DNA from: a virus
DNA: 27,239 bases
Direction: 5' to 3' (one strand)
IMG/VR virus record: IMGVR_UViG_3300032287_001043
Span: 1-27,239 of that record
The notes below the pieces were generated by a model. That model was given only the letters and a program-made list of their open reading frames with translations, was not told the DNA's origin and made no database searches. Both the position numbers and the translations under genes were made by a program. Positions 581-15,470 of this stretch are shown here, one piece after another (position 1 is the first letter of the stretch; each line of letters begins with the position of its first letter).

Positions 581-888
581 GCACTCAAGCCTTTGACGTC
601 GACGACGTGATGCCCACGCTCGAGGATGCCGACAGCGATCTGAAGGTGAACTGGTTTCACCCTCGCTTTGGCTGGGTTCAGGGTCACTGGGAGTTTCCCA
701 GCTACTCAGACAGCACCCACTGGGCGCGACTGCCCGAGCGCCCCTCTGCCGTGGATCCCGAGGAAAGGATCAACGCTGCCTTTGACGCATGGATCGCCAC
801 GTTCCCAACTGAGTTCGAGGAATCAGCCAAGGCCCTGTTCAAGACTGGATTCCGTGCTGGTCTGAAGCGTGCCAAGCGTGGCTACTGA
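577..888 (+). CDS. Hypothetical protein, 103 aa
   Basis: It starts at ATG 577 (ATGA overlap with the previous stop) and ends at TGA 886-888, one base before the RNA polymerase ATG. The N-terminal half is acidic and aromatic (residues around WFHPRFGWVQGHW). The C-terminal half looks like an amphipathic helix ending in a basic tail (FRAGLKRAKRGY). No catalytic motif is visible and I do not recognise a family. The immediate coupling to the RNA polymerase suggests co-expression. Confidence 0.65.
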   Translation: MSTQAFDVDDVMPTLEDADSDLKVNWFHPRFGWVQGHWEFPSYSDSTHWARLPERPSAVDPEERINAAFDAWIATFPTEFEESAKALFKTGFRAGLKRAKRGY

Positions 889-889
889 C

Positions 890-3286
890 ATGAGCTACAC
901 CGACGAGCAGATCAAGGAGCAACTGATCCTTGAGCAAGAGATGCTGGCCCTCGGTGCTGATGCCTACGACACCAGGCTCAGGCTCAACAAGCAGAAGCGA
1001 CGGGAGTCACTCAGTCCACCCGGTAACAAGCTGGCCGCTGCTGGTGTCGGCAAGCTCTGCGATGCGATCGAAGCCCTGCTTGATCACCTGGAAAACGGCA
1101 AGGCCTACAAGTGGGCGGCTTACCTGCACCCACTGAAGGAACTCACCGCTGAACAGATTGCCGGGACCACCATGCGTGTGGCCCTGGACAAGATCAGCCA
1201 GCACCGCAAGGCCAATGCCATGGCCCTCGAGATTGGCGCTGCCCTGTGGGCGGAGGCCATGCTTGGCAAGGCTGGTCACTTCGATCTGGTTGACCACCTT
1301 GCCGTCAAGCGGTGGCGCAACAAGAGCGAGAAACGGGCCGACATCCTGCAGATGGAGACCACCACCATCTGGTCCCTGCGTGAGCGCCAGTCCATCGGTC
1401 TTGTCCTGCTGCAACTGCTGGTGTTCCACACCGGCATCGTGCAACTGACGACCGTGCAGCAGGGGCTAAAGCGCACACGGATCGTGTCGATCACGCCGGA
1501 AGCTTTCGAGTGGTTGGAGACAGGGCACGCCAAGCACCGCCTCCTCTGCCCGATGCGGCTGCCGATGCTGATCAAGCCGCAGCCTTGGACGAACCTCCAC
1601 AATGGCGGGTACCTGACCGACATCCCAGGCAACACCCTGATCAAGGATGCCAAGGCAAGCAGGGATCACACCACTGGCAAGGAGCCGTTCCTGCAGGCCG
1701 CCAACCTGCAGCAGGAGGTGGGCTGGCAGATCAACAGATGGTTGCTCGAGCAGGCCAACCATGCCTGGTCACAGGGCCTGGGGATTGGAAGCATGGTGCC
1801 CAGTCAGGGGTACGAGATGCCTCCATTCCCCAAGCACCTGCCACCCACCCACGTGGACGTCACCCAGTGGAAGCACAACGCCCGGGTGATCCACGAGAAG
1901 AACGACGCTGAGAAGAGCCAGCGGGTTCAGATCCTCAAGGCCCTGTGGGTTGCTGATCGGTTCAAGAACCGGGAGGCCTTCTACTTCCCGATGCAGGTGG
2001 ACTTCAGGGGCAGGTTCTACTACCGCTGCTACCACCTGAACCCGCAGGGGCACGACCTGTCACGGGCTCTGCTTCAGTTCGCTGAAGGGGAGCGGATCGT
2101 GGATGACCAGGCCCTGTCCTGGCTCAAGGTCCACGGTGCCAACACCTACGGGCACGGCAAGTTCTCGTGGTCTGACCGGATCGCATGGGTGGAGGAGAAC
2201 GAGGAGGCGATCCTCGCTGCTGGTTCCGACCCTTGGGGCCCGTCCTCCGTCTGGTGGCAGGGGGCCAAGTCACCTTGGCAGTTCCTTGCCTTCTGCCGCA
2301 GCTACCGGCAGTTCACCGTCAATGGCTGGGGATACATCAGCAGGCTGCCAGTCCAGCTGGACTGCACCTGCTCTGGGATCCAGCACTTTGCTGCCCTGCT
2401 CCGCGACGAGGACATGGCGGGCATGGTCAACCTCATGCCAAGCGAGGAGCCCATGGACATCTACACCGAGCTCACCAACCGGGTGCTTGCCTTGCTGCGA
2501 AACAGCAGCGAAAGCTATGCCGCCATGTGGCTGGAGCTTGGGCCCGATCGGTCACTGACCAAGCCGATCGTCATGACCTTGGCTTACAGCGCCACTCGAC
2601 GGTCAATGATGAGGCACTGCCAAGAGTGGTCACACGAACGGGGGATGCAACTCAATGGCATGGAGTCCTGGCCCTTCAAGGCAGGGGGACTGAAGGCTTG
2701 CTACTGGATGGCTGACCTGCTCTACAGCGAAGCGACCAAGCTGATCCAACCAGCACAAAGCACCATGGCTTGGTTCAAGAAGCTTGGCTCCGCAGCCGGG
2801 AAGCTTGACACTGAGTTGATGTGGACTTCGCCAAGCGGATTGAATGTGTATCAGAACTATCCTCGATACACGGCAACATCAATCAACTTGCGAACTCTCA
2901 GTCCTGTTATGCATTTCATCGGCAAAGTCTACGACAATGTTGATGGCTTGGATCAAAGGCGAATGGCCAATAGCCTTAGCGCAAACGTCATTCATAGCCT
3001 GGACTCTGGCCACATGGCATTGACATTGTGCAATGCAAGTCGTGTCATTAAAAACTTTGGAGGAATCCATGATTGCTTTTTGACAACAGCTGCAGAGATG
3101 GCAACCCTACGCCAGGTTGTCCGTGCTACCTTTGCTGAGATGTACGCCGACGATCCGTTGGCAGACATCACCGAACAACTGGCTGGACAGATCCCAGTCC
3201 AGGCCTATTCAAAGCTGCCACCACTTCCACGGCTTGGCAACTTTGACATTGACCAAGTAAACGACGCTGACTATTTCATCTCATGA
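890..3286 (+). CDS. gp1: T7-like single-subunit DNA-dependent RNA polymerase
   Basis: This 798-residue enzyme (T7 gp1 is 883) would transcribe the phage middle and late genes from phage promoters. The conserved core is clear. Motif A is LPVQLDCTCSGIQHF with catalytic D491 (T7 D537). Motif B is RSLTKPIVMTLAYS with K558 and Y566 (T7 K631 and Y639). Motif C is GGIHDCFLT with D728 (T7 D812). The segment FRGRFYYR...LNPQGHDLSRALLQFA also matches T7. The start is placed at ATG 890, right after the upstream stop; an in-frame GTG at 869 would overlap that gene by 20 nt. No strong Shine-Dalgarno sequence precedes it. The C-terminus ends DYFIS where T7 ends FAFA. The last roughly 400 bases are clearly lower in GC than the rest of the gene, although they encode the essential motif C. 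Confidence 0.97.
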   Translation: MSYTDEQIKEQLILEQEMLALGADAYDTRLRLNKQKRRESLSPPGNKLAAAGVGKLCDAIEALLDHLENGKAYKWAAYLHPLKELTAEQIAGTTMRVALDKISQHRKANAMALEIGAALWAEAMLGKAGHFDLVDHLAVKRWRNKSEKRADILQMETTTIWSLRERQSIGLVLLQLLVFHTGIVQLTTVQQGLKRTRIVSITPEAFEWLETGHAKHRLLCPMRLPMLIKPQPWTNLHNGGYLTDIPGNTLIKDAKASRDHTTGKEPFLQAANLQQEVGWQINRWLLEQANHAWSQGLGIGSMVPSQGYEMPPFPKHLPPTHVDVTQWKHNARVIHEKNDAEKSQRVQILKALWVADRFKNREAFYFPMQVDFRGRFYYRCYHLNPQGHDLSRALLQFAEGERIVDDQALSWLKVHGANTYGHGKFSWSDRIAWVEENEEAILAAGSDPWGPSSVWWQGAKSPWQFLAFCRSYRQFTVNGWGYISRLPVQLDCTCSGIQHFAALLRDEDMAGMVNLMPSEEPMDIYTELTNRVLALLRNSSESYAAMWLELGPDRSLTKPIVMTLAYSATRRSMMRHCQEWSHERGMQLNGMESWPFKAGGLKACYWMADLLYSEATKLIQPAQSTMAWFKKLGSAAGKLDTELMWTSPSGLNVYQNYPRYTATSINLRTLSPVMHFIGKVYDNVDGLDQRRMANSLSANVIHSLDSGHMALTLCNASRVIKNFGGIHDCFLTTAAEMATLRQVVRATFAEMYADDPLADITEQLAGQIPVQAYSKLPPLPRLGNFDIDQVNDADYFIS

Positions 3287-3915
3287 ACTTCATCATCACT
3301 GACAAGATCCGCATCACCACCCCGATCTGTCGTTTCTCCTTCCCCAAGCTGGTTGAACCCGAGACCAAGTTTGACCCGGCCGGTCAGTACAAGGTGATGG
3401 GTGTCATGGCCCCGGATGTTGCATCCGAGATCGCCGATCGACTCGATGCCCTGCTGAACCTGCACAAGGGCAGCCTGAAGCAGCAGGCCCCGACCCAGTC
3501 CTTCAAGCTGGCCGACCTGCCCTTCGGCTTCGAGGAGATCGACGGTCAGCCCAGCTTCGTGGTCAAGACCAAGATGAAGGCCAGCGGCATGGAGCGTGAC
3601 GGTCGTCACTGGTCCGCTGCTCCTGCCCTGTTCGACGCCAAGGGTCAGCCGATCCGTGACCGGGAGTCGCTCAAGGGAATGTGGTCCGGCACCACCGGCC
3701 GCATCGGCTTCGATGCCTGCCCCTTCTACAACGCAGCCATTGGTGCAGGCATCACCCTGCGCCTGCGTGCTGTCCAGATCGTTGACCTGGTGGAGAGTGG
3801 TGGTAACGCCGCGTCCTTTGGCTTTGGAGAGGAAGAGGGATTCACCGTTGGCGAGGCTTCAGCGCCGATCCCGTTCGACGCAACCGGATCCGTCACCGAT
3901 GCCGGGGACTTCTAA
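3283..3915 (+). CDS. gp2.5: Single-stranded DNA-binding protein (T7 gp2.5 family)
   Basis: This 210-residue protein (T7 gp2.5 is 232) coats single-stranded DNA and in T7 coordinates the replisome through its C-terminal tail. Evidence is its position directly after the RNA polymerase, its size, the N-terminal region around ITTPICRFSFPKLVEP, and a C-terminus ending in a phenylalanine after acidic residues (GSVTDAGDF), the hallmark of gp2.5. The tail is less acidic than in T7. It overlaps the polymerase gene by 4 nt (ATGA) and endonuclease I by 17 nt. The family call rests on architecture and order, as no catalytic residues apply. Confidence 0.85.
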   Translation: MNFIITDKIRITTPICRFSFPKLVEPETKFDPAGQYKVMGVMAPDVASEIADRLDALLNLHKGSLKQQAPTQSFKLADLPFGFEEIDGQPSFVVKTKMKASGMERDGRHWSAAPALFDAKGQPIRDRESLKGMWSGTTGRIGFDACPFYNAAIGAGITLRLRAVQIVDLVESGGNAASFGFGEEEGFTVGEASAPIPFDATGSVTDAGDF

Positions 3916-4285
3916 GTTCCGCTCCAAGTTCGAGGCATCGGTCGCTTTCTCACTGGCCAAGCGGGGCCTGCCCTTCAAGTACGAAGGGCTAGCCCTGCCC
4001 TACACAGTGCAGTCGGTGTACACCCCGGACTTCATCCTCCCCAATGGAGTGATCGTTGAGACCAAGGGACTGTTTGATCAGGACGACCGTCGCAAGATGA
4101 TCGCCGTGAAGAAGCAGCACCCCGACCGGGACATCCGCATCTGCTTCATGAAGGCAGACGTCAAGCTTTCCAGAGCTCCACACTCGCTCAAGTATTGGCA
4201 ATGGGCTGAGCGACACGGGTTTCTCTGGTGCCAAGGCCACATACCAACGAGCTGGTTCGATGCCGTCCAAGTTTCAGAAACATGA
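3899..4285 (+). CDS. gp3: Endonuclease I, Holliday-junction resolvase (T7 gp3)
   Basis: This 128-residue product (T7 gp3 is 149) resolves branched DNA and in T7 helps degrade host DNA. The core YTPDFILPNGVIVETKGL is nearly the same as in T7. The likely metal-binding residues D44, E54 and K56 correspond to T7 D55, E65 and K67, and E12 to T7 E20. The start is ATG 3899, inside the end of gp2.5. The frame stays open far upstream, but only through the gp2.5 gene, and homology begins near FRSKFEASV. It overlaps the helicase gene by 26 nt. The short N-terminal arm and the missing basic C-terminal tail account for its smaller size. Confidence 0.95.
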   Translation: MPGTSKFRSKFEASVAFSLAKRGLPFKYEGLALPYTVQSVYTPDFILPNGVIVETKGLFDQDDRRKMIAVKKQHPDRDIRICFMKADVKLSRAPHSLKYWQWAERHGFLWCQGHIPTSWFDAVQVSET

Positions 4286-5867
4286 ACCCTGCCCCGAGTG
4301 CAAGAGCAAAGACAATTTCGCTCGCTATGACGATGGCCACGGTCATTGCTTTGGCTGCGGCTACAGGGAAGGAGCACCAAAAGCTGATCGTCCACCCCCA
4401 GTCATGTCACCACCATCAACGCCGTCACTGATTCCCTTCGTCACACCTCAAGCTCTGGTCAAGCGAGGGATCACCGAGGAGACCTGCAAGCTCTACGGCT
4501 ATGGCACCACCAGCTACATGGGCCAACCAGCCCAGGTGGCGGAGTACCGCAACAGCAAGGGTGACGTTGTCGCTCAGCATGTCCGCTTCCCCGACAAGCG
4601 CTTCCGCTGGGTGGGGGACAGCACCGACATGCAGCTATGGGGTCAGCACCTCTGGCGGCAGAACCACGGCAAGGAGACCAACGTCTTCTGCGTGGTCACC
4701 GAGGGGGAGATCGACGCCATGTCGGTCAGCCAGGTGCAAGGCAACAAGTTCCCCGTGGTCTCGGTGCCCAACGGGGCCCAGTCAGCCAAGAAGTACCTGG
4801 CCGCCAACCTCGAGTGGCTCAGTCAGTTCAGCCGGGTGGTGCTCTGCTTTGACAGCGACGAACCCGGACGCCAGGCAGCAGAGGCTTGCCTTGCTGTCCT
4901 GCCCCTCGGCAAGGCAGCGATCTGCCACCTTCCTCGGAAGGATGCCAACGACATGCTGCAGGCCGGGGAGGAAGCGCAGCTGCGTGACCTCCTGTGGAAG
5001 GCAACACCCTCCAGGCCGGATGGCATCGTCAACGCTGCCGATCTGTGGGATGAACTGATCCGGCCGGGCTCTGCTTCGGTCTGCTCCTACCCATGGCCAG
5101 CCCTGGATCGCATGGCCCGGGGCTTCCGCAAAGGGGAGATGGTGACCCTCACTGCTGGCAGCGGCATTGGCAAGTCGCTGATCTGCAGGCACATCGCCCA
5201 TCACTTCCTCGAGCGTGGTCTTCGCGTTGGGTACATCGCCCTCGAGGAGTCACTGCAGCGCACCATGCAGGGGATTGTGGGCCTGCACATTGGCAAGCCC
5301 ATCCACCTGGACCCGGCACTCGCCGACCAGCAGGAGGTACGCAATGGCTTCGATGAAGTGTTCGGCTCCGGCCGGTGCTTCCTCTATGACCACTTCGGAT
5401 CCATGGACCCGGATCACCTGATCAACAAGATCAGGTTCTTGGCCGATGGGGAGGGGGCGGACATCGTGTTCCTTGACCACCTGACCATTGTGGTCAGTGG
5501 CCTTGCTGACATCGACGAACGTCGAGCCATTGACGTCACCTGTACCAAGCTGCGCCAGGTGGTGGAGCAGACAGGCATCGGCCTGCTGCTGGTCTCTCAC
5601 CTCAAACGACCAGAGGGACGGAGCCACGAGGAAGGCGCAGCAACCAGCCTGTCTCAACTGCGTGGCAGCCATGCCATTGCTCAGCTGTCAGACATGGTGA
5701 TTGGTGCAGAGCGCAACCAACAGGGCCAGGCGCATGAGCGCAATGAGCTCCAGCTCAGAGTGCTGAAGAACCGCCATGCTGGCCAGACCGGACTCGTCGA
5801 CAAGCTGCTGTACGACGAGGACACCGGCAAATTAATTGTCCCAATGTCAACCTACTTCGGATCATGA
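4260..5867 (+). CDS. gp4: Primase/helicase (T7 gp4)
   Basis: This 535-residue bifunctional replication protein (T7 gp4A is 566) makes primers and unwinds DNA 5' to 3' as a ring. In order it shows an N-terminal zinc site (C11, C14, C30, C33), a TOPRIM primase centre (E148 in VTEGEIDAMS; D198 and D200 in DSDEPGR), a helicase Walker A motif (AGSGIGKS, about residues 299-306), Walker B (IVFLDH, D406), motif H3 (LLLVSHLKRPEG) and a C-terminal arginine-bearing segment (LRGSHAIAQLSDMVIGAERN). It overlaps gp3 by 26 nt and the exonuclease by 4 nt. It ends KLIVPMSTYFGS, so it lacks the acidic tail ending in Phe that T7 gp4 uses to hold its DNA polymerase. No DNA polymerase gene follows it. Confidence 0.97.
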   Translation: MPSKFQKHEPCPECKSKDNFARYDDGHGHCFGCGYREGAPKADRPPPVMSPPSTPSLIPFVTPQALVKRGITEETCKLYGYGTTSYMGQPAQVAEYRNSKGDVVAQHVRFPDKRFRWVGDSTDMQLWGQHLWRQNHGKETNVFCVVTEGEIDAMSVSQVQGNKFPVVSVPNGAQSAKKYLAANLEWLSQFSRVVLCFDSDEPGRQAAEACLAVLPLGKAAICHLPRKDANDMLQAGEEAQLRDLLWKATPSRPDGIVNAADLWDELIRPGSASVCSYPWPALDRMARGFRKGEMVTLTAGSGIGKSLICRHIAHHFLERGLRVGYIALEESLQRTMQGIVGLHIGKPIHLDPALADQQEVRNGFDEVFGSGRCFLYDHFGSMDPDHLINKIRFLADGEGADIVFLDHLTIVVSGLADIDERRAIDVTCTKLRQVVEQTGIGLLLVSHLKRPEGRSHEEGAATSLSQLRGSHAIAQLSDMVIGAERNQQGQAHERNELQLRVLKNRHAGQTGLVDKLLYDEDTGKLIVPMSTYFGS

Positions 5868-6613
5868 CTCTCTTAATTGACGCTGACTGGCTGATCTACT
5901 CCGCCTGCTCTGCATGTGAGTGCGACATCAGGTGGGATGAATGGATCCACACCCTGCACCTTGAACCAGCTGACGTCTATGCGTTTATCGGCAACAGGGT
6001 TGAGGAATGGAAGAACATCACCAACCACAAGGACGTGGTCATGTGCTTCTCTGACTACCCTTCCTTCCGCTATTCCCTGTACCCCGAGTACAAAGCAAAC
6101 AGGGTTGGCAAGCGGAAGCCACTCGGCTTGCGTGATCTTCGGATGTGGGTGCAGCAGCGCTACGAAACCCGCACCATGTTCGGGCTTGAGGGGGACGACG
6201 TCCTTGCGGTCCTGGCAACCAATGGTGCGTACACCTCGCCGATCATCATCTCTCCTGACAAGGACATGAGGACGGTGCCTTGCCAGCTGCTGGCCAAGGA
6301 CACTGTTGAGTCCATCACCAAGGAAGAGGCCATGCGCAGCTGGATGCTGCAGACCTTGACCGGTGATCAGTCAGACAACTACCCCGGCATCAAGGGGTGC
6401 GGTCCAGTCAAGGCCGACAAGATCCTTGGTGATGAGCAAGACCCCATGAAGATGTGGACGTTGGTCCTCGAGGCGTACCGCAAGGCAGGCCTCACCTTTG
6501 CCGATGCCCTGCTCAACGCCAGACTGGCCAGGATCCTGCGTCATGGTGATTACGATTGCCACAGTGGTGAGATCGACCTTTGGGATCCGTCCCACCTGCT
6601 GAGGAATCAATGA
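5864..6613 (+). CDS. gp6: 5'-3' exonuclease (T7 gp6, FEN-like)
   Basis: This 249-residue nuclease (T7 gp6 is 300) would remove RNA primers and degrade host DNA from 5' ends. FEN-family features are visible: N-terminal LLIDADWLIY with metal ligands D6 and D8, FRYSLYPEYKANR, the acidic GLEGDDVLAV, SPDKDM, and LTGDQSDNYPGIKG leading into a helix-hairpin-helix (GCGPVKADKIL). It starts at ATG 5864, overlapping the gp4 stop by 4 nt, and its stop overlaps the next ATG by 4 nt. In T7, gene 5 sits between gp4 and gp6; here the two genes are fused end to start with nothing between. Confidence 0.95.
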   Translation: MTLLIDADWLIYSACSACECDIRWDEWIHTLHLEPADVYAFIGNRVEEWKNITNHKDVVMCFSDYPSFRYSLYPEYKANRVGKRKPLGLRDLRMWVQQRYETRTMFGLEGDDVLAVLATNGAYTSPIIISPDKDMRTVPCQLLAKDTVESITKEEAMRSWMLQTLTGDQSDNYPGIKGCGPVKADKILGDEQDPMKMWTLVLEAYRKAGLTFADALLNARLARILRHGDYDCHSGEIDLWDPSHLLRNQ

Positions 6614-6792
6614 ACCCAGAAGACCTGTATCCCACAGTCGAGAAGGCTTGGCTTGATCGTCTCGAGGAAACCTTCCCTGAGCGATGCCCAGATGAAAGCT
6701 GGACTGATCGCCAGATTTGGATTTATGTGGGACAACGCAACGTGGTTCGCATGTTGCAGGCCATTTACATTGAACAGCAGAACGAGGCTTGA
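6610..6792 (+). CDS. Small acidic protein between exonuclease and gp7.3-like gene, 60 aa
   Basis: The start ATG 6610 overlaps the exonuclease stop (ATGA) and follows a TGAGGA Shine-Dalgarno-like sequence about 6 nt upstream. This is preferred over an in-frame GTG at 6580. The 60 residues (MNPEDLYPTVEKAWL...IEQQNEA) form two probable amphipathic helices, the first acidic, with no catalytic motif. T7 encodes small proteins gp6.5 and gp6.7 in this interval, but I cannot show homology. Function unknown. Confidence 0.7.
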   Translation: MNPEDLYPTVEKAWLDRLEETFPERCPDESWTDRQIWIYVGQRNVVRMLQAIYIEQQNEA

Positions 6793-6795
6793 CCC

Positions 6796-7110
6796 ATGTG
6801 CTTTGGCGGCGGCGGAGCTCCCCCTGACAACTCGGCAGCACTGAACCTGCAACGGGAACAGATCGCTCAACAGCAACAGCAGTTCGAGCGGCAGATGGCC
6901 GTTCAGCAGGTCCAGTACGACGAGCAGCGGAGGATCGCAGCAGCACCTCCGCCGCCCGCCCCCAACCCCATGGCGTCTGCTGCTGCCCCAGCAATCCAAG
7001 GATCCACTGCTGGCACCATGCTCCCCACCCGGGTTGGCGCTGGTCGCCGGGCCCTGCGGACTGACATCACTGGTGTTGGCACGGGTGGCCTCAGCATCCC
7101 TGGAGCCTGA
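6796..7110 (+). CDS. gp7.3: gp7.3-like virion/tail assembly protein
   Basis: This 104-residue protein has a short N-terminal cap (MCFGGGGAPPDN), a Gln-rich coiled-coil-like helix (about residues 15-50), a Pro/Ala linker, and a C-terminus GRRALRTDITG...GGLSIPGA. That C-terminal pattern resembles the GRKKAR...SLSV...GGGINI end of T7 gp7.3 (99 aa), a virion protein needed for tail assembly, and the position just before the portal agrees. It lacks the Lys-rich N-terminus of T7 gp7.3. It begins 3 nt after the previous stop (TGA CCC ATG) and shares one base with the portal start. Confidence 0.65.
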   Translation: MCFGGGGAPPDNSAALNLQREQIAQQQQQFERQMAVQQVQYDEQRRIAAAPPPPAPNPMASAAAPAIQGSTAGTMLPTRVGAGRRALRTDITGVGTGGLSIPGA

Positions 7111-8858
7111 TGGAACTCAACCTGACCAACAGTGTCGACAAGCAATCCAAGCCCTATGGGGGCGAGGAGGAGGGCACTGCTGCGGCTCGATACCACCAGC
7201 TGGTCACCAACCGTGACGCCTACCTCGAGCGGGCACGGGATTGCAGCAAGGTCACCATCCCCTCTCTGATCCCTGATCAGAACTTCGGGGACCGTGGCCG
7301 ACTGAAGACCCCGTACCAATCGCTTGGCGCTCGGGGTGTGAACTACCTGGCCAGCAAACTGCTGATCACCCTGTTCCCACCCAACGCTGCGTTCTTCAAG
7401 CTGGAGATTGACGACCTCGCTCTGCGAGTTTCTGACACTGACCCGGCCATCAAGACAGAGCTGGACACGGCGCTGGTCCGAGTGGAACGGGCCATCATGT
7501 CTGTGCTTGAGGTGGCCAATGGCCGGGCCTCGATGCACGAAGCCTTCAAGCACCTGTTGGTCGGTGGCAACGTCCTGCTGTACGTCGCGCAAGACGGCAT
7601 CAGGGTGATCCACTTCAGCCGCTACGTCCTGTGTCGTGACCCCATGGGGAACGTCACCGAGATCGTGGTGGAGGAGGAGGTCTACCCCGAGGCCCTGCCC
7701 TCTGACTTCCTGCCTGAGGACACCGAGGACGAGGAGTACCGGTCCGGCCAGAAGACCATCCGCCTCTACACCTATGTGGAGTTCGAGGACGGCAAGTGCC
7801 ATTGGTGGCAGGAGGCCAAGGGCAAGGAGATCCCCGGCACTCACGGCATGTGTGATGAGGACGTGTCTCCTTGGATCCCACTCCGCTTCAACCGGGTGGA
7901 CTCTGAGGAGTACGGCCGCTCCTACATCGAGGAGTATTACGGGGATCTGCTGGCCCTCGAGTCCCTGTATCAGGCGGTGCTGGAGGGATCAGCTGCTGCG
8001 GCGAAGATCCTGTTCCTGGTCAATCCCAACGGAACCACCAGGCCCCGCACCCTGCAGAACGCCGCCAACGGAGCGATCGTCCAAGGCAATGCAGCGGACG
8101 TCAGTGTCATCCAGAGCCAGAAGGCTCAGGACCTGTCGATCGCACAGAACACCATCGACCGGATTGAAGGCCGACTGCAGTTTGCCTTCCTGCTGAACAC
8201 CGCCATCCAACGCCCGGGTGAACGAGTGACGGCAGAGGAGATCCGGTTCATGAGTCAGGAGCTGGAGGCTGGCATCGGCGGTCTCTATTCGATCCTGACC
8301 CAGGAGCTCCAGCTCCCCTTGGTGCGTCGGTTGATGCATGTTCTGCATAAACAGCGGAAGCTCCCTGCCTTTCCGAAGTCATCGGAAGGTGGCAAGGATC
8401 TCGTCAACCCCAGGCCGGTCACCGGTCTCGAGGCCATCGGTCGAGGTGACGATAGCAACAAGCTGGTGGAGTTCATCACCACCGCGCAACAAGTACTTGG
8501 CCCCGAGATCATGGCCAAGTACATCAACGTCGATGAAGCACTGCGTCGCCTTGCGGCCAGCAATAGCATCGACACCACCAACCTGGTCAAATCCAAAGAG
8601 CAGTTGCAGGGTGAAGCAGCGCAAGCTGCAGCAGCCCAACAGCAGCAGTCTCAGCAGGAGATGATCACCAACGCTCTGTCGTCACCAGCAATGGCGCAGG
8701 CAGCCAAGAACTACACCGCACCTGGAGCTCCCTATGGTCCGCAGAACACCCCAGATGGACTCAACACAGTCCTCCCAACCACGGCAAGCGTCACCGGAGG
8801 AGCAGCCCCTGTCCCTGGTGGGCCCCCCGGCGAAGGTGCCCCAACCCCAGCCGGTTGA
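7110..8858 (+). CDS. gp8: Portal (head-tail connector) protein, T7 gp8
   Basis: This 582-residue protein (T7 gp8 is 536) would form the dodecameric portal for DNA packaging and tail attachment. Blocks matching T7 include LGARGVNYLASKLL.TLFP, VGGNVLLY, EEYGRSYIEEYYGDL, RPGERVTAEEIRFMSQELE, GGLYSILTQELQLPLVRRL and VTGLEAIGRGDD. The Gln-rich stretch after about residue 490 and the Pro/Gly-rich end (GGPPGEGAPTPAG) are longer than in T7 and probably disordered. It starts in a TGATG overlap with gp7.3, preceded by TGGAG. Its last 125 nt are overlapped in another frame by a small gene. Confidence 0.96.
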   Translation: MELNLTNSVDKQSKPYGGEEEGTAAARYHQLVTNRDAYLERARDCSKVTIPSLIPDQNFGDRGRLKTPYQSLGARGVNYLASKLLITLFPPNAAFFKLEIDDLALRVSDTDPAIKTELDTALVRVERAIMSVLEVANGRASMHEAFKHLLVGGNVLLYVAQDGIRVIHFSRYVLCRDPMGNVTEIVVEEEVYPEALPSDFLPEDTEDEEYRSGQKTIRLYTYVEFEDGKCHWWQEAKGKEIPGTHGMCDEDVSPWIPLRFNRVDSEEYGRSYIEEYYGDLLALESLYQAVLEGSAAAAKILFLVNPNGTTRPRTLQNAANGAIVQGNAADVSVIQSQKAQDLSIAQNTIDRIEGRLQFAFLLNTAIQRPGERVTAEEIRFMSQELEAGIGGLYSILTQELQLPLVRRLMHVLHKQRKLPAFPKSSEGGKDLVNPRPVTGLEAIGRGDDSNKLVEFITTAQQVLGPEIMAKYINVDEALRRLAASNSIDTTNLVKSKEQLQGEAAQAAAAQQQQSQQEMITNALSSPAMAQAAKNYTAPGAPYGPQNTPDGLNTVLPTTASVTGGAAPVPGGPPGEGAPTPAG

Positions 8859-9987: not shown

Positions 9988-10971
9988 ATGGCTGCACCTA
10001 CCTTTGACGCTTCCAGGCTTGGCCTGGTCAACAACGCCGGTGGTGGTACCTGGGCAGGCGACAACGCTCTGTTCCTCCAGGTCTTCGCTGGTGAAGTGCT
10101 GACTGCTTTCCGCAAGGCCACCATCTTCGAGGCCCTGCACAGTGTCCGCACCATCAGCTCCGGCAAGAGCGCCAGTTTCCCGATCATCGGTCTCAACAGT
10201 GCTGCGTATCACACGCCCGGCACGATGATGACCGGCACCCAGATGAAGCACGCTGAGGCTGTCATCAAGATCGACGACAAGCTGGTGTCGAACGTCTTCA
10301 TCGCCGACATCGACGAAGCGAAGAACCATTACGACGTCCGCTCTCCCTACTCCGGGGAGATGGGCAATGCTCTGGCCTACACGTTTGACAAGAACGTGGC
10401 TGCCACCATCGCCAAGGCCGCTCGTACCGCCACCAACTTCAACACCGATCTGCCCGGCGGCACCCGCATCAAGATCGTTGCTGCCTCCAAGAGCGCCATC
10501 ACCGGCTCTCAACTGGCTGCTGCACTCTTCAGTGCTGCCACTCAGATGGATGTGAACAACCTGCCTGAGAACGATCGCTATTGCGTCCTGGCTCCGGCCG
10601 AGTACTACAAGCTCGTCCAGACCACCGACGTGATCAACCGTGATTGGGGCGGTGCTGGTGCCTATGCCGACGGCACCGTCCTGCGGGTCGCTGGCATCAC
10701 CATCCTCAAGTCGAACCACCTGCCCACCACCAACCGGTCCACCACTACCGGTGAGCAGAACGACTACACCGGCAACTTCACTGACTGCGTGGCCCTTACC
10801 TTCAACAAGCAAGCGGTCGGCACTGTGAAGCTGATGGACCTGAAGATGGAGCAGACTGGCTCTGACGTTCACGCCCTCTGGCAGGGCACCTTCATGGTGG
10901 CCAGCATGGCCCTTGGCACCGGGGTTCTTCGCCCTGACTGCGCCGTGGAGATCTACACCGCCACCAGCTGA
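9988..10971 (+). CDS. gp10: Major capsid protein (T7 gp10A)
   Basis: This 327-residue protein (T7 gp10A is 345) forms the icosahedral shell with an HK97-type fold. Conserved blocks include LFLQVFAGEVLTAFRKA, VRTISSGKSASFPIIG, AAYHTPG, NHYDVRSPYSGEMG, then QAVGTVKLMDLKME and GTGVLRP near the C-terminus, all aligned in order with T7. It is the only structural gene with its own long leader, flanked by a terminator and candidate promoter upstream and a strong hairpin downstream, as expected for the most highly expressed gene. I see no slippery site or downstream frame that would give a T7-like gp10B. Confidence 0.97.
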   Translation: MAAPTFDASRLGLVNNAGGGTWAGDNALFLQVFAGEVLTAFRKATIFEALHSVRTISSGKSASFPIIGLNSAAYHTPGTMMTGTQMKHAEAVIKIDDKLVSNVFIADIDEAKNHYDVRSPYSGEMGNALAYTFDKNVAATIAKAARTATNFNTDLPGGTRIKIVAASKSAITGSQLAAALFSAATQMDVNNLPENDRYCVLAPAEYYKLVQTTDVINRDWGGAGAYADGTVLRVAGITILKSNHLPTTNRSTTTGEQNDYTGNFTDCVALTFNKQAVGTVKLMDLKMEQTGSDVHALWQGTFMVASMALGTGVLRPDCAVEIYTATS

Positions 10972-10982
10972 CGGTTGACCTT

Positions 10983-11000
10983 GGGGCCCTTCGGGGCCCC
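10983..11000 (+). terminator. Perfect GC hairpin after capsid gene (T-phi position)
   Basis: GGGGCCC pairs with GGGCCCC around a TTCG tetraloop closed by C-G, an exceptionally stable RNA hairpin, 12 nt after the capsid stop. The following bases are TCCCCCTTTCC, so the U tract is poor. T7 has its main late terminator (T-phi) at the same place. It may act as a partial terminator, or as a 3' mRNA stabiliser or processing boundary. The gp11 ribosome binding site (CGGAG, 11011-11015) lies just downstream. Confidence 0.6.
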
Positions 11001-11021
11001 TCCCCCTTTCCGGAGTCCACC

Positions 11022-11630
11022 ATGACCCTTGCTCGCACCACCTTCCTGGAGGCCGTGAACCGAGTCCTTCAGATGATGGGGGAAGCTCCGGTCAATGGCT
11101 TGGATGGCCAGTACGGCCTGGCCCAGCAGGCCCAGACGATGCTCAACGAGATCAGCCGACGGATCCAGTCGGAAGGCTGGTCGTTCAATACAGACTTCGA
11201 GTTCACCCTGATGAGGGACGCCGTCACCGGTGAGATTGCGGTGGGCGCCAACGTCAGCAAAGTGGTCATCGACCCCTACAACTACACGAACCTGGACGTG
11301 GTTCAGCGTGGGAGTCGGCTCTACGACAGGCGCAACAACACCTACTCCTTTGATGCCGACCTGAAGGCAGACATCACCTACATCCTCGAGTGGGAGGAGC
11401 TCCCCGAGTACGCCCTGGAATACATCACCACCAAGGCTGGTCGTCACCTGCAGGAGGCGATCCTTGGCAGTGCTGACCTGACCCGGATCAACATGTCCGC
11501 AGAGGCTGAAGCCCGGTCTGCGTTCCTCGAGCAAGAGATGAGCGTCAGCCAACCCAACATGCTGAGAGGGAACCCCAACCACACTGGGGTCTTCATGACC
11601 TTCATGCCCAGTCGGGCACTGCAGCGTTGA
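11022..11630 (+). CDS. gp11: Tail tubular protein A / adaptor (T7 gp11)
   Basis: This 202-residue protein (T7 gp11 is 196) forms the ring joining portal to nozzle. Family features are the N-terminal FLEAVNRVLQMMGEAPVN, then MLNEISRRIQSEGWSFNT, IDPYNY.NLDVVQRGSRLYDRRN, and Y.LEWEELPEYALEYI...AGRHLQ. It starts at ATG 11022 with CGGAG 7 nt upstream. It follows the capsid gene and hairpin as in T7 and is 3 nt from gp12. Confidence 0.95.
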   Translation: MTLARTTFLEAVNRVLQMMGEAPVNGLDGQYGLAQQAQTMLNEISRRIQSEGWSFNTDFEFTLMRDAVTGEIAVGANVSKVVIDPYNYTNLDVVQRGSRLYDRRNNTYSFDADLKADITYILEWEELPEYALEYITTKAGRHLQEAILGSADLTRINMSAEAEARSAFLEQEMSVSQPNMLRGNPNHTGVFMTFMPSRALQR

Positions 11631-11633
11631 ACC

Positions 11634-14285
11634 ATGCCACTTATCAGCAGCTCCATCCCCAACCTGATCAATGGGGTCAGTCAGCAACCTGCTGCACTGC
11701 GCCTGGCCAGTCAGGCCGAGCAGGTTGTCAACTGCCTGCCAAGCCCGGTGGAGGGACTGCGGAAGCGGCCACCCAGCAACCACATCGCCAAGCTGTTCAA
11801 TGGCACCGCTGGCACCGGTCGCCCCTTCACCACGATCGTTGACCGAGACGGGGTGATTCGGTACCTGATCTTGATTCAGGACAACGCCATCAAGGTCTTC
11901 GGGTTGGACGGGTCAGTCAAGACGGTGGCCACCCCTGACGGCACGTCCTACCTGGACATTGTTGGCGAGCCAAGCAACGTGTTCCGAGTGGCATCGGTTG
12001 CGGACTACACCTTCATCGTCAACCGAGAGAAGACGGTGGCGATGAGCGCGACGACGTCCCCGACATGGGGCACCAAGTCGATGGTATTCATCCGGTCGGC
12101 CGAGTACGCCACCACCTACAGCATCACCGTCAACAGCACGACGGTCAGCTACACCACGCTTCCGGCTGGCGGCAAGAGCATCGCTGCGTCCTACGCCCGG
12201 GCAAGCAACACCGTCACTGTGACCTGCACGGCGGCCCATGGCTTGGCTACCGGCAACCAGGTTGACATGACCTTCCAGTCGGGTTCTGGCACGGCTGGCA
12301 CATTCACGATTACCGTCACCAGCTCTACAGTCTTCACTTACACAGACCCAGTCGGTGGTACGACGTCAGGAAATTGCACGATTGTTTATCAACCAAACTA
12401 CTCACCAAGTACAACGGAGATTGCATCGGCACTGGGTACGTCGCTTGCTACGGCATTGGGCGGAAGCTGGACTGTCACTAGCAGCTCAAGTGCTTACGTT
12501 GTAAGGATTGCCAAGAATGATGGCACTGACTACACACTGAGCTCTTTGGACACAAAGACAGGTCTCGCCAGCGTGGCCGTCAAAGGTTCGATTGACTCCA
12601 TCTCTGATCTTCCAACCACTGCAGAACATGGATTCATCGTCAAGATCCAAGGGTCGGTATCAACAGGGTTGGATGATTACTACGTTCAGTTTGTAGCAAA
12701 CTCTGGATCTGGCTTTGGTCATGGCATCTGGCAGGAGACGGTGGCCCCTGGCATCCAGTACCTGTTCGACGCCACGACCATGCCGCATGTGCTGGTCCGG
12801 GAGAACGACGGCACCTTCACCTTCAGAAAGTTCACCTGGTCTGGTCGCATTGCCGGGGATGCTTCGACCGCCGCAAACCCCAGCTTCGTCGGCAGCAAGA
12901 TCCAGAACATCAACCTGTTCCGCAACCGGCTGGTCTTCCTTGCGGATGAGAGCGTCATCCTGTCGACCACCGATGCCTACGACCGGTTCTGGCCGGAGAC
13001 GGTGCAGACGGTGGTTGACAGTGACCCGATCGACTTGCTGGCCGGTGGTCGGAAGATCAACTTCCTGATCAGCAGCCTGGCCTTTGCCAACACCCTGCTG
13101 CTCTTCAGTCGCCACGGCCAGTTCCGCCTGGACAGCGGCGCATCGGTTGGTTCAAGCCTCACACCCAAGACAGCCAACATCACGCTGGTCACCACCTTCG
13201 AGATGCTGGACAACGTCGACCCGGTAGGTGTCGGCCGCACCATCTATTTCGCCATCCCCAAGGGGGACTACAGCGGGCTGAGGGAGTTCTTCCTGCCGGA
13301 TGCCAGCGGCCCGGTTCCCCTTTCGGAAGAGGTGACGTCCTCAGTTCCCAAGTACCTTCCCCTGAATCTGTCCACGCTGGTGGCATCGGTCTCCGAGGAG
13401 GCCATGCTGCTGATCGGCAAGGACCAACCCAAGCGGCTCTACCTCTACAAGTTCTATTTCGAGGACGACAAGAAGCTCCAATCCTCCTGGTCCTATTGGG
13501 AGTTCACCAGCTCCAAGACCGTGATCGGTGCGGACATGATCGACAGCGATCTGTACGTCGTCGTCGAGTACAGCAATGGGGTCTACCTCGAGAGGATTCA
13601 GACGCGCCCGGACAACGTGGACAGCGGCAGCACCATTGAGATCGGCCTGGACCGCAAGGCAAGTGAAGCCAGCTGCTCTGTGGCACTGACCAACCCTGCT
13701 GGTCTCGATGTCCAGAGCACCATCACCCTGCCGTACCCGATCGCCAGCGGGAGCTCCATGGTGGTGGTCGGTCGGTTCTATGCAGGCAACACCCTGCAGC
13801 ATGGGCAGGTTCTGGTTCCGATCAGTCAGACGACGTCCGGTGGTGCTGGTGGCAACGGCACCCTTGTGGTCCGTGGTGATCTGACGGCTGCCAAGTTCTT
13901 CGTTGGCGAGACCTACGAGATGCTCTACCAGTTCTCCACCCAGTTCCTGAAGGAGCAACCGCCGGGTGGTGGCATGGCAGTGATCGGTGGGCCCAAGCTG
14001 CAGCTGCGGACCTGGACCCTGGTCTTCGACAAGACCAGCCACTTCAACCTGAAGGTGACTCCCCGCAACCGCGATACCTACACCTACCCGTACAACGGGA
14101 CAGAGATCGGTGACTCCGAGATCAGCATTGGCGAGGTGGGCCTGCGAACGGGATCCTTCAGAGTTCCAGTGATGGCCCAGAATGTTGATGCCAGAATCGA
14201 AATCACCAGCAGCAGTCCGCTGCCGTGTCGGATTCAGTCAGCCGAATGGGAAGGATGGTATCACTCCAGAGCAGCCCGCCTGTAA
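11634..14285 (+). CDS. gp12: Tail tubular protein B / nozzle (T7 gp12)
   Basis: This 883-residue protein (T7 gp12 is 794) forms the tail nozzle. Family blocks include the N-terminal LINGVSQQPAALRLASQAEQ.VNCLPSPVEGL.KRPP, then RNRLVFLADESVILSTTDAYDRFWPETV and DNVDPVGVGRTIYFAIPKGDYSGLREFF. Between about residues 155 and 345 it carries extra beta-rich sequence, including a repeat-type block around VTCTAAHGLATGNQVDMTF (near residues 187-245) of a kind found in many phage tail proteins. The second half of this insert (about 12300-12715) is lower in GC than its surroundings. It starts 3 nt after gp11 with no Shine-Dalgarno sequence and overlaps gp13 by about 30 nt. Confidence 0.95.
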   Translation: MPLISSSIPNLINGVSQQPAALRLASQAEQVVNCLPSPVEGLRKRPPSNHIAKLFNGTAGTGRPFTTIVDRDGVIRYLILIQDNAIKVFGLDGSVKTVATPDGTSYLDIVGEPSNVFRVASVADYTFIVNREKTVAMSATTSPTWGTKSMVFIRSAEYATTYSITVNSTTVSYTTLPAGGKSIAASYARASNTVTVTCTAAHGLATGNQVDMTFQSGSGTAGTFTITVTSSTVFTYTDPVGGTTSGNCTIVYQPNYSPSTTEIASALGTSLATALGGSWTVTSSSSAYVVRIAKNDGTDYTLSSLDTKTGLASVAVKGSIDSISDLPTTAEHGFIVKIQGSVSTGLDDYYVQFVANSGSGFGHGIWQETVAPGIQYLFDATTMPHVLVRENDGTFTFRKFTWSGRIAGDASTAANPSFVGSKIQNINLFRNRLVFLADESVILSTTDAYDRFWPETVQTVVDSDPIDLLAGGRKINFLISSLAFANTLLLFSRHGQFRLDSGASVGSSLTPKTANITLVTTFEMLDNVDPVGVGRTIYFAIPKGDYSGLREFFLPDASGPVPLSEEVTSSVPKYLPLNLSTLVASVSEEAMLLIGKDQPKRLYLYKFYFEDDKKLQSSWSYWEFTSSKTVIGADMIDSDLYVVVEYSNGVYLERIQTRPDNVDSGSTIEIGLDRKASEASCSVALTNPAGLDVQSTITLPYPIASGSSMVVVGRFYAGNTLQHGQVLVPISQTTSGGAGGNGTLVVRGDLTAAKFFVGETYEMLYQFSTQFLKEQPPGGGMAVIGGPKLQLRTWTLVFDKTSHFNLKVTPRNRDTYTYPYNGTEIGDSEISIGEVGLRTGSFRVPVMAQNVDARIEITSSSPLPCRIQSAEWEGWYHSRAARL

Positions 14286-14755
14286 CCGCTCACTGTCGAC
14301 GCACTCAGCCGTCTGACATCCGCGTCGTTGCCGACAACATGCGGGCAGAGGACGTGGCAGAAGTCAAGGCCCACTCAGGATTGGATCCTGACCAGGCCTT
14401 GCTGCTGTCCTACTTCCACAGTGAACCCTGCCTGTCGATTGTCAGCCGTCACGGCGACGTCATCGGCATGTGGGGTGTGGTTCCGCAGGAGGACAGGACA
14501 GGAAGGATCTGGATGCTTGGGACTGATGCGATGCTTGATGATCCCCAAGATCGACGCACCTTTCTTCGGCAGTCGAAGGAGGTGCTGCGTGAACTCCATC
14601 ACCAGTTCATTCTTCTCTTCAACGAAGTCGACGCAAGGAACACTGTTCACATCCGCTGGTTGCGATGGATGGGCTTTACGTTCGTCCGGTATCGCCCAAA
14701 CTATGGGACAGAGGGACAGCCTTTTTACGAATTTTGCAAGGTGAGCCATGTGTAG
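14255..14755 (+). CDS. gp13: Internal virion protein gp13-like (GNAT-like fold)
   Basis: This product is about 166 residues (T7 gp13 is 138). The best match is the C-terminal half: WMLGTDAML, a helix RRTFLRQSKEVLREL, NTVHIRWLRWMGFTFVRY and GQPFYEFCK, matching the T7 gp13 pattern of W.VTSDQVWRL, NTSHIRFLKTIGA and GQFQLFTITK. The pattern resembles an acetyltransferase fold, but no activity is implied; T7 gp13 is needed for assembly of infective virions. The start is uncertain: ATG 14255, ATG 14246 and GTG 14225 are all inside gp12, and homology seems to begin only near SDIRVVADNM (about 14318). The gene overlaps gp14 by 8 nt. Confidence 0.8.
   Translation: MVSLQSSPPVTAHCRRTQPSDIRVVADNMRAEDVAEVKAHSGLDPDQALLLSYFHSEPCLSIVSRHGDVIGMWGVVPQEDRTGRIWMLGTDAMLDDPQDRRTFLRQSKEVLRELHHQFILLFNEVDARNTVHIRWLRWMGFTFVRYRPNYGTEGQPFYEFCKVSHV
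14277..14295 (+). promoter_or_regulatory. Candidate phage promoter at gp12/gp13 junction
   Basis: CGCCTGTAACCGCTCACTG straddles the gp12 stop and shares 15 of 19 bases, including an unbroken CCGCTCACTG, with the site before the capsid gene. T7 has promoter phi13 at this junction. It lies within the 5' coding part of gp13, so it would have to serve gp14 onwards, or gp13 would start later. Confidence 0.3.
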
Positions 14756-15470
14756 CGCACTCGTACTCGGACTGATCAGCGGCGGTTTGGGCATTGCTCA
14801 GAGCGTGGCTAGTTATCAGCAGGCCCAGCAGACGACGGCCTACGAGAACGCCGCTGCTCAGCAGAACTTCGTGTTCCAGCAGATGCAGGCGTCCGCTGGT
14901 CGGCACTTCGAGCAGATGCGGGAGAACCAGCAGAACTCCGTCATCGAGCAGAACCGCTTCCTTGCGGACAAGGCCTACCAGGACGAGATCAGCCAGCTCA
15001 ACCTGCGCCTGATGCAGGAGCAAGAGGCTGCAGCGCAGAAGCAGCAGGAGGCCGCAAAGCAGGGGATGCAGCTGCGTGGCGAGGTGGTGGCCAGTGGTCG
15101 CATGGGAGCCAGTGTCGACAACCTGATCGCCGACTACTACCGACAACAGGCTGCCTTCGACTACGCCACCCAGCGGAACCTGGCCTTCACCGGGGCGCAG
15201 GTCCAGCAACAGAAGGTGGCCAGTGCAGCGACTCGAGGCAGCAGGATCGCCAGCCAGCAGCCCTACATCCAGCAGCCGATCCTGGATCCGATGGCGCCGA
15301 TCGAACGACCACAACCCAGTGCTCTGCCGTACCTGCTCAGTGGCGTGAGTGCTGGCATCAGTGGATTCACGTCCGGCTACGAGATGGGGAACAAGCTGAC
15401 AGGCTTGAGCAAGGGGGCTCCACCCCCCGCAGGTCGCCTCACCAACCTTCCCCGTTCAAAACCGAAGTAA
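14748..15470 (+). CDS. gp14: Internal virion protein gp14 (ejectosome outer-membrane channel)
   Basis: This 240-residue protein (T7 gp14 is 196) starts MCSALVLGLISGGLGIAQSV, resembling the T7 gp14 start MCWAAAIPIAISGAQAIS: a Met-Cys cap, then a hydrophobic membrane-active helix. A long Gln/Glu-rich helical region follows (residues 25-130) and then ASGRMGASVDNLIADYYRQQ, comparable with the T7 AAIGESMLEGSSMDRI region. In T7, gp14 is ejected and makes the pore in the outer membrane. It has a good Shine-Dalgarno sequence (AAGGTGAG, about 3 nt before the ATG) and overlaps gp13 by 8 nt. Confidence 0.88.
   Translation: MCSALVLGLISGGLGIAQSVASYQQAQQTTAYENAAAQQNFVFQQMQASAGRHFEQMRENQQNSVIEQNRFLADKAYQDEISQLNLRLMQEQEAAAQKQQEAAKQGMQLRGEVVASGRMGASVDNLIADYYRQQAAFDYATQRNLAFTGAQVQQQKVASAATRGSRIASQQPYIQQPILDPMAPIERPQPSALPYLLSGVSAGISGFTSGYEMGNKLTGLSKGAPPPAGRLTNLPRSKPK

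Follow-up and report, generated by a model that had tools for sequence, protein, structure and literature searches.

A high-GC branch of T7-like podoviruses without a detectable DNA polymerase gene, beside the MPP-C cyanophages

The MPP-C phages, described in 2022, are cyanopodoviruses without a DNA polymerase (PMC9860041). According to that paper, DNA polymerase has been a marker gene for counting cyanopodoviruses, and polymerase-less phages are missed by surveys of this kind. The same paper names the host's Pol III, the host's Pol I and a diverged phage enzyme as possibilities for the missing activity. A preliminary description of the DNA analysed here asks which polymerase would cooperate with the phage's helicase and SSB, a question already posed in PMC9860041. 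A literature search on "MPP-C" together with "cyanophage" returned only that paper and one on the structure of P-SCSP1u (PMC10575957). In T7, gp4 attaches through its acidic C-terminal tails to basic patches on the polymerase (gp5), and removal of these tails lowers processivity (PMC12593628, PMC8472574).

The window, by which we mean the whole stretch of DNA analysed, is the entire 27,239-base record IMGVR_UViG_3300032287_001043, classed as linear. Its genes lie on the + strand in T7 order: RNA polymerase, SSB, endonuclease I, gp4, 5'-3' exonuclease, portal, scaffold, capsid, tail tubes A and B, internal virion proteins and tail fibre. The single-subunit RNA polymerase together with the T7 virion genes identifies a T7-like phage (Autographiviridae). 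The window is a genome fragment that ends before any terminase (TerL is absent from it), and comparison with its relative G002 puts the missing DNA at about 1.5 kb at the left end and some 10 kb at the right end. The features on which the argument depends are as follows.

869..3286, + strand: T7-type single-subunit RNA polymerase (PF00940, 2.1e-81)
3283..3915, + strand: SSB of the gp2.5/Enc34 type (PF10991, 2.6e-7; SBB_T7, 2.7e-5), with C-terminus ...DAGDF, terminal Phe kept
3899..4285, + strand: endonuclease I of the gp3 type (PF05367, 5.7e-32 in the ORF 3596-4285, matched from residue 106); probable start at ATG 3899
4260..5867, + strand: gp4-type primase/helicase, 535 aa (DnaB_C, 4.3e-17; Helic-prim_T7_N, 2.4e-15; Toprim_2, 3e-11)
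4290-4358 and 5157-5177, + strand: zinc motif and Walker A motif of gp4
5793..5864, + strand: C-terminal tail of gp4, 24 residues, ending ...STYFGS, without the terminal Phe of polymerase-bearing relatives
5864..5867, + strand: ATGA overlap of the gp4 stop and the exonuclease start, where CRP-125 and similar relatives have a DNA polymerase
5864..6613, + strand: 5'-3' exonuclease of the gp6 type, 249 aa (PF02739, 5_3_exonuc_N, 1.2e-10)
6580..6792, + strand: small conserved protein (phrog_4970), 3' of the exonuclease
7110..8858, + strand: portal, or head-tail connector (PF12236, 1.5e-82)
9988..10971, + strand: major capsid protein, MCP (PF21703, 2.8e-66)
11634..14285, + strand: tail tubular protein B, TTB, or nozzle (PF25675, 3.9e-245)
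15474-18185 and 18233-25108, + strand: large proteins of 903 aa and 2,291 aa, occupying the places of internal virion proteins gp15 and gp16

The ORF coordinates bear out exactly the 4-nt overlap of gp4 and exonuclease reported in the preliminary description, and the Pfam matches identify the three replication genes that it listed as retained, gp2.5, gp4 and gp6, as a gp2.5/Enc34-type SSB, gp4 and the exonuclease. It had also stated that no frame of the window carries a DNA polymerase, and profile searches of the whole 27,239-base record agree. Neither PF00476 (DNA_pol_A) nor, in searches whose controls worked, PF00136 (DNA_pol_B) and PF07733 (Pol III alpha) found a match. A further profile, built from the polymerases that adjoin related gp4 genes, matched 21/21 polymerase-bearing whole records and 0/16 others, the window being among the 16. 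Two additional searches were uninformative: with DNA_pol_B_2 (PF03175) neither the record nor the control gave a match, and PF01612 was insensitive enough to miss T7 and CRP-125. Judged by similarity, then, it is a detectable polymerase that appears to be absent.

Because the window is a fragment without a terminase, its own ends are unseen, and the preliminary description had allowed for a polymerase gene in the same genome upstream of position 1 or downstream of 27239. This was checked by proxy on relatives. The nearest long relative, G002 (39,726 bases; 94% identical to the window in gp4, 82% in exonuclease, 77% in RNA polymerase and 93% in capsid), passes the window at both ends, terminase included, and has no PF00476 match. 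Another relative, G008 (40,298 bases), carries an exact 127-nt end repeat and is therefore probably complete; it too has no PF00476 match despite the presence of RNA polymerase, gp4, exonuclease, portal, capsid, tail and terminase genes. None of 18 IMG/VR records with a window-type gp4 that were searched whole matched PF00476. Among 22 whole records the single match was CRP-125, the intended positive, with 0/21 in the window and MPP-C sets, and among a further 29 records the 13 matches were all 13 of the polymerase-bearing ones, with 0/16 in the P-SCSP1 and P-SCSP2 sets. With no room in the slot between the window's gp4 and exonuclease either, a polymerase at a missing end is extremely improbable.

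The lineage might instead have a DNA polymerase too diverged for the profiles, an option also listed in PMC9860041. The window does encode two large proteins, of 903 and 2,291 aa, that match no Pfam family at E 0.01. However, they sit at the gp15 and gp16 positions and match the P-SCSP1u proteins found there (35% identity in 127 aligned columns for the first, 27% in 908 for the second), and every other frame of 250 aa or more common to the window and P-SCSP1u has been assigned a known function. We consider a diverged polymerase very unlikely.

The absence of a polymerase from this slot is a general property of these phages. A total of 267 loci came from four scans of viral contigs, made with the gp4 of the window, of P-SCSP2, of CRP-125 and of P-SCSP1u; four reference phages and the window brought the number classed to 272 (35 of the 272 undecided). 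Both gp4 and exonuclease are held by 74/81 loci of the window set, 23/27 of the P-SCSP1u set and 77/80 of the P-SCSP2 set, giving 177 polymerase-less-type loci with the addition of three references. A polymerase lies between the two genes in 0/177, and the gap runs from -4 to 1,341 nt, a single estimate of -165 excepted. Of the CRP-125 set, 38/80 loci hold both genes (21 end within 1,431 bases after gp4 and were left out as undecidable); with CRP-125 itself this makes 39, and a polymerase lies between in 39/39, with gaps of 1,990-3,710 nt. The small phrog_4970 protein occurs in 141 polymerase-less and 11 polymerase-bearing loci. ThyX is found in the slot or at its edge in 9/177 polymerase-less loci, but the idea that the slot is a remnant of an ancestral gp4-polymerase-ThyX-exonuclease order was not borne out, the ThyX being just 26-30% identical to that of CRP-125 where it matches.

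The preliminary description had proposed that this genome may belong to a described lineage of polymerase-less cyanopodoviruses, and best matches, gene order and the gp4 clade indicate that this lineage is MPP-C. The best named matches of the window are MPP-C phages, at 57.6% identity in gp4, 53.5% in exonuclease and 70.2% in the capsid protein. In a tree of 42 gp4 proteins with the tails removed, a single clade (support 100/100) unites all 15 polymerase-less rows, among them the window, P-SCSP1u and P-SCSP2; within it, ten polymerase-less rows, the window included, make up the window's branch (97/94), beside P-SCSP1 and P-SCSP2. The window also groups with P-SCSP1/P-SCSP2 in the exonuclease tree (support 100) and the SSB tree (99). 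In the MCP, RNA polymerase (RNAP) and TTB trees it groups with P-SCSP1, and P-SCSP2 is loosely placed; the placement of the RNA polymerase among known cyanopodoviruses, which had been suggested as a check, thus joins the window to a polymerase-less phage. The window RNA polymerase is 77% identical to that of G002, 42% to that of P-SCSP1u and 28% to that of P-SCSP2. The alternative that the window represents an independent case did not hold up, the 100/100 gp4 clade arguing against an independent loss relative to MPP-C. The GC content of the window set ranges from 53.7 to 63.7% (median 0.599, 81 loci), with medians of 0.415 in the P-SCSP1u set and 0.373 in the P-SCSP2 set. As judged from sequence, the window is a new high-GC branch beside P-SCSP1/P-SCSP2, within an already described kind.

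The clade is further marked by the C-terminus of gp4. Tails were counted in 250 full-length gp4 proteins and 3 references, 26 of them undecided. A terminal Phe is present in 0/169 polymerase-less proteins versus 56/58 from polymerase carriers (the other two end in Asp), and at 90% redundancy in 0/29 versus 25/26; on the tree the tail changed just once, and these counts therefore amount to a single contrast rather than many. The T7-replisome trait, in which a family A polymerase docks on an acidic tail with a terminal Phe, is missing from the window gp4 with its ...STYFGS end. The absence of the gp4 C-terminal Phe across the window/MPP-C clade is new here. It does not amount to a rule that polymerase loss entails loss of this residue, since S37-C6 and S31-C1 have no polymerase match and their gp4 keeps the terminal Phe. 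Polymerase carriers whose gp4 lacks it include an L246-type phage (D), CRP-118 (Y) and S30-C28 (E). The SSB ends in Phe in 145/145 scored polymerase-less loci and in 36/44 others. The simplest reading would be that in this clade gp4 has been freed from docking a T7-type polymerase and that the SSB tail keeps a partner.

Because the window has intact frames for the SSB, the primase/helicase and the exonuclease, whereas a polymerase is detectable neither in it nor anywhere in the clade, we infer that a host enzyme must copy the DNA. In the model that we favour, gp4 would open and prime the fork and the phage SSB would coat the lagging strand, DNA synthesis would be carried out by a host enzyme, most likely the Pol III holoenzyme, and the exonuclease would remove primers and degrade host DNA. 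The preference for Pol III stems from its role as the replicative enzyme. Host DNA polymerase I might serve instead: it belongs to family A, as does T7 gp5, and is among the candidates of PMC9860041. The Discussion of that paper gives Pol I a mainly repair role in cells, however, and the gp4 tail, the docking site for a family A polymerase in T7, is the very element that is altered in this clade, so that we regard Pol I as an unlikely choice. As to how Pol III might be engaged, no sliding-clamp-binding motif is conserved in gp4, exonuclease, SSB, endonuclease I or three small proteins, and no protein able to recruit a host polymerase was identified. A gp4 pattern in 54/177 was considered as a clamp-binding motif and set aside, as it looks like a chance hydrophobic stretch. 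We hold it to be quite probable that the window is a fragment of an MPP-C-type T7-like podovirus, from a polymerase-less lineage that has its own replication set (SSB, endonuclease I, gp4, exonuclease and RNA polymerase) and replicates by a host DNA polymerase.

The history of this replication set may differ from that of the virion. For trees and tests of the module, eight long-branch or partial rows were dropped beforehand. In the MCP, RNAP and TTB trees, P-SCSP1 joins the window clade with support of 99-100, and a grouping of P-SCSP1 with P-SCSP2 is rejected by all three (p 4.9e-7, 2.0e-5 and 3.5e-71, respectively). In the SSB, gp4 and exonuclease trees, P-SCSP1 instead goes with P-SCSP2 (supports 99.7, 95.2 and 93.7). 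This conflict suggests an exchange of the replication module between backbones. It could mean that SSB, gp4 and exonuclease are a mobile polymerase-less module swapped between two podovirus backbones, and that the MPP-C virion genes are not one lineage. On the other hand, the replication genes do not firmly reject P-SCSP1 with the window clade (SSB p 0.047, exonuclease 0.0615, gp4 0.313, all three joined 0.0502), the branch leading to P-SCSP2 is long, and MCP does not reject one clade of all three groups (p 0.287). We would put the chances of a mobile module at somewhat short of even.

A second polymerase-less set is formed by S-SRP02, a freshwater Synechococcus isolate, with S38-C3, S37-C6 and S31-C1. 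S-SRP02 has no PF00476 and no DnaB_C match, and nothing in it is found at E 10 with the gp4 or polymerase profiles, with both of which T7 and Syn5 score at least 577 bits. S38-C3 is likewise without polymerase and gp4 (DnaB_C), and S37-C6 and S31-C1 are without polymerase only, gp4 being kept. The S-SRP02 protein annotated as "DNA polymerase I" (p034, SSRP02_p034) has 246 aa, matches 5_3_exonuc_N at 3.7e-11 and is 39% identical to the window exonuclease; by these matches it is an evident exonuclease that has been misannotated. The description of S-SRP02 mentions a "DNA polymerase" gene used in a concatenated tree (PMC8790148), and this is presumably p034, because the table lists no other "DNA polymerase I". 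No printed statement of the missing polymerase or gp4 in this group was found in a literature search that had subscription journals outside its scope, and the apparent lack of a detectable DNA polymerase or gp4 in S-SRP02 is new here. According to PMC3861242, group G9 could not be given a host. The trees neither establish nor reject a single clade of all the polymerase-less rows, whether for gp4 with S37-C6 and S31-C1 added (p 0.353) or for exonuclease with the whole S-SRP02 group added (p 0.513). A broader and rather doubtful speculation is that SSB, gp4 with its rebuilt C-terminus and exonuclease might constitute a self-contained, exchangeable front end that couples to the host replicase and has moved between backbones, and that such phages might be commoner than recorded, extending over high-GC hosts and counting among them the isolate S-SRP02, which would hand helicase, primase and polymerase to the host.

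To judge by kinship, the window's own host may be cyanobacterial, and the GC content of 58.8% suggests that it is not Prochlorococcus MED4. MPP-C phages are characterised by a lack of auxiliary metabolic genes; psbA is absent from 23/23 records, and the 20 window proteins scanned include no such gene, but ThyX is present in the nine polymerase-less loci mentioned above. A single scan of genome contigs with the window gp4 found only two distant contigs, 45-47% identical and both polymerase-bearing.

The absence of a polymerase is itself of an already described kind; what is added here is the high-GC branch, the gp4 tail, the conflict between modules and the S-SRP02 annotation. With the window and its kin, the polymerase-less type takes in a large branch of high GC content represented in public metagenomes. 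A phage helicase-primase deprived of its own polymerase partner also lends itself naturally to studying how a ring helicase and a replicase of different origins are coupled, and the gp4 tail comparison supplies a concrete residue to test.

Among known systems, the closest parallel is with the MPP-C phages P-SCSP1a-u of Prochlorococcus MED4, which share with the window the gene order from RNA polymerase to tail fibre and the lack of a DNA polymerase; P-SCSP1u even has the 4-nt overlap of gp4 and exonuclease (6340-6343). They differ in GC content, 38.7% as against 58.8%, and in genome size, MPP-C genomes measuring 37.3-37.9 kb and the long relatives of the window set a somewhat larger 38.7-40.3 kb, the window being a 27.2-kb fragment. 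P-SCSP2 and Jalkavirus S08C159 likewise have no polymerase match, and are 52.6% and 52.4% identical to the window in gp4 and 53.5% and 51.2% in exonuclease. Their RNA polymerase is only 28% identical, however, their capsid about 50% and their tail tube B 40%; in these three proteins P-SCSP2 stands no nearer to the window than polymerase-bearing phages do, and it differs further in having an integrase. The S-SRP02 group is T7-like, as is the window, and a PF00476 match is found in 0/4 of its whole records, but it lies on distant capsid and terminase branches. Finally, the Roseobacter phage CRP-125 and the LUZ100-type phages have the T7-like gene order of the window and a gp4 that is 50.9% and 39.2% identical, respectively; unlike the window, they carry a DNA polymerase and ThyX between gp4 and exonuclease, and their gp4 has an acidic tail that ends in Phe.

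The cyanophage S-SRP02, a freshwater Synechococcus isolate (L327, MW822601), carries two genes whose annotations name a DNA polymerase:

10903-11607, product labelled "DNA polymerase III beta subunit"
22389-23129, gp6-type 5'-3' exonuclease, annotated "DNA polymerase I"

The second product is a gp6-type 5'-3' exonuclease despite its label, and neither a DNA polymerase nor gp4 (primase/helicase) was detectable in the S-SRP02 genome. The first matches PF02767 at 0.0065 and the processivity-factor family phrog_947 at 2e-8, alongside a match to the RusA-like phrog_3007 at 4.2e-8; the beta subunit label is weakly supported. Among phage records, this protein matched only S-SRP02 itself.

Two large proteins are encoded in the window:

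15474-18185, internal virion protein, 903 aa
18233-25108, 2,291-aa protein

Neither was matched in a Pfam scan. By eye, the C-terminal part of the first reads like a lytic transglycosylase, an activity that in T7 sits on gp16, and the second contains an HExxH-like stretch, AAHEAFHIV.

In G002, the window's nearest long relative (locus L087), two genes adjoin, and the pair probably represents nucleotide metabolism and endolysin functions:

13891-14406, dCTP deaminase-like protein (7.2e-27)
14406-15047, peptidase M15 (5.6e-15)

The IMG/VR record G006 (60,395 b; loci L101-L103) looks like a chimera of two podoviruses: beyond about 39.5 kb, tail, capsid and portal genes occur a second time, and a 1.2-kb repeat (90%) lies at 1 and 38,647.

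Among the polymerase-less loci, ThyX lies between gp4 and the exonuclease in L014, L015, L022, L023, L028, L029, L032, L055 and L067, the L015 protein matching PF02511 at 3.8e-43. In polymerase-bearing relatives such as CRP-125, this slot holds both a DNA polymerase and ThyX.
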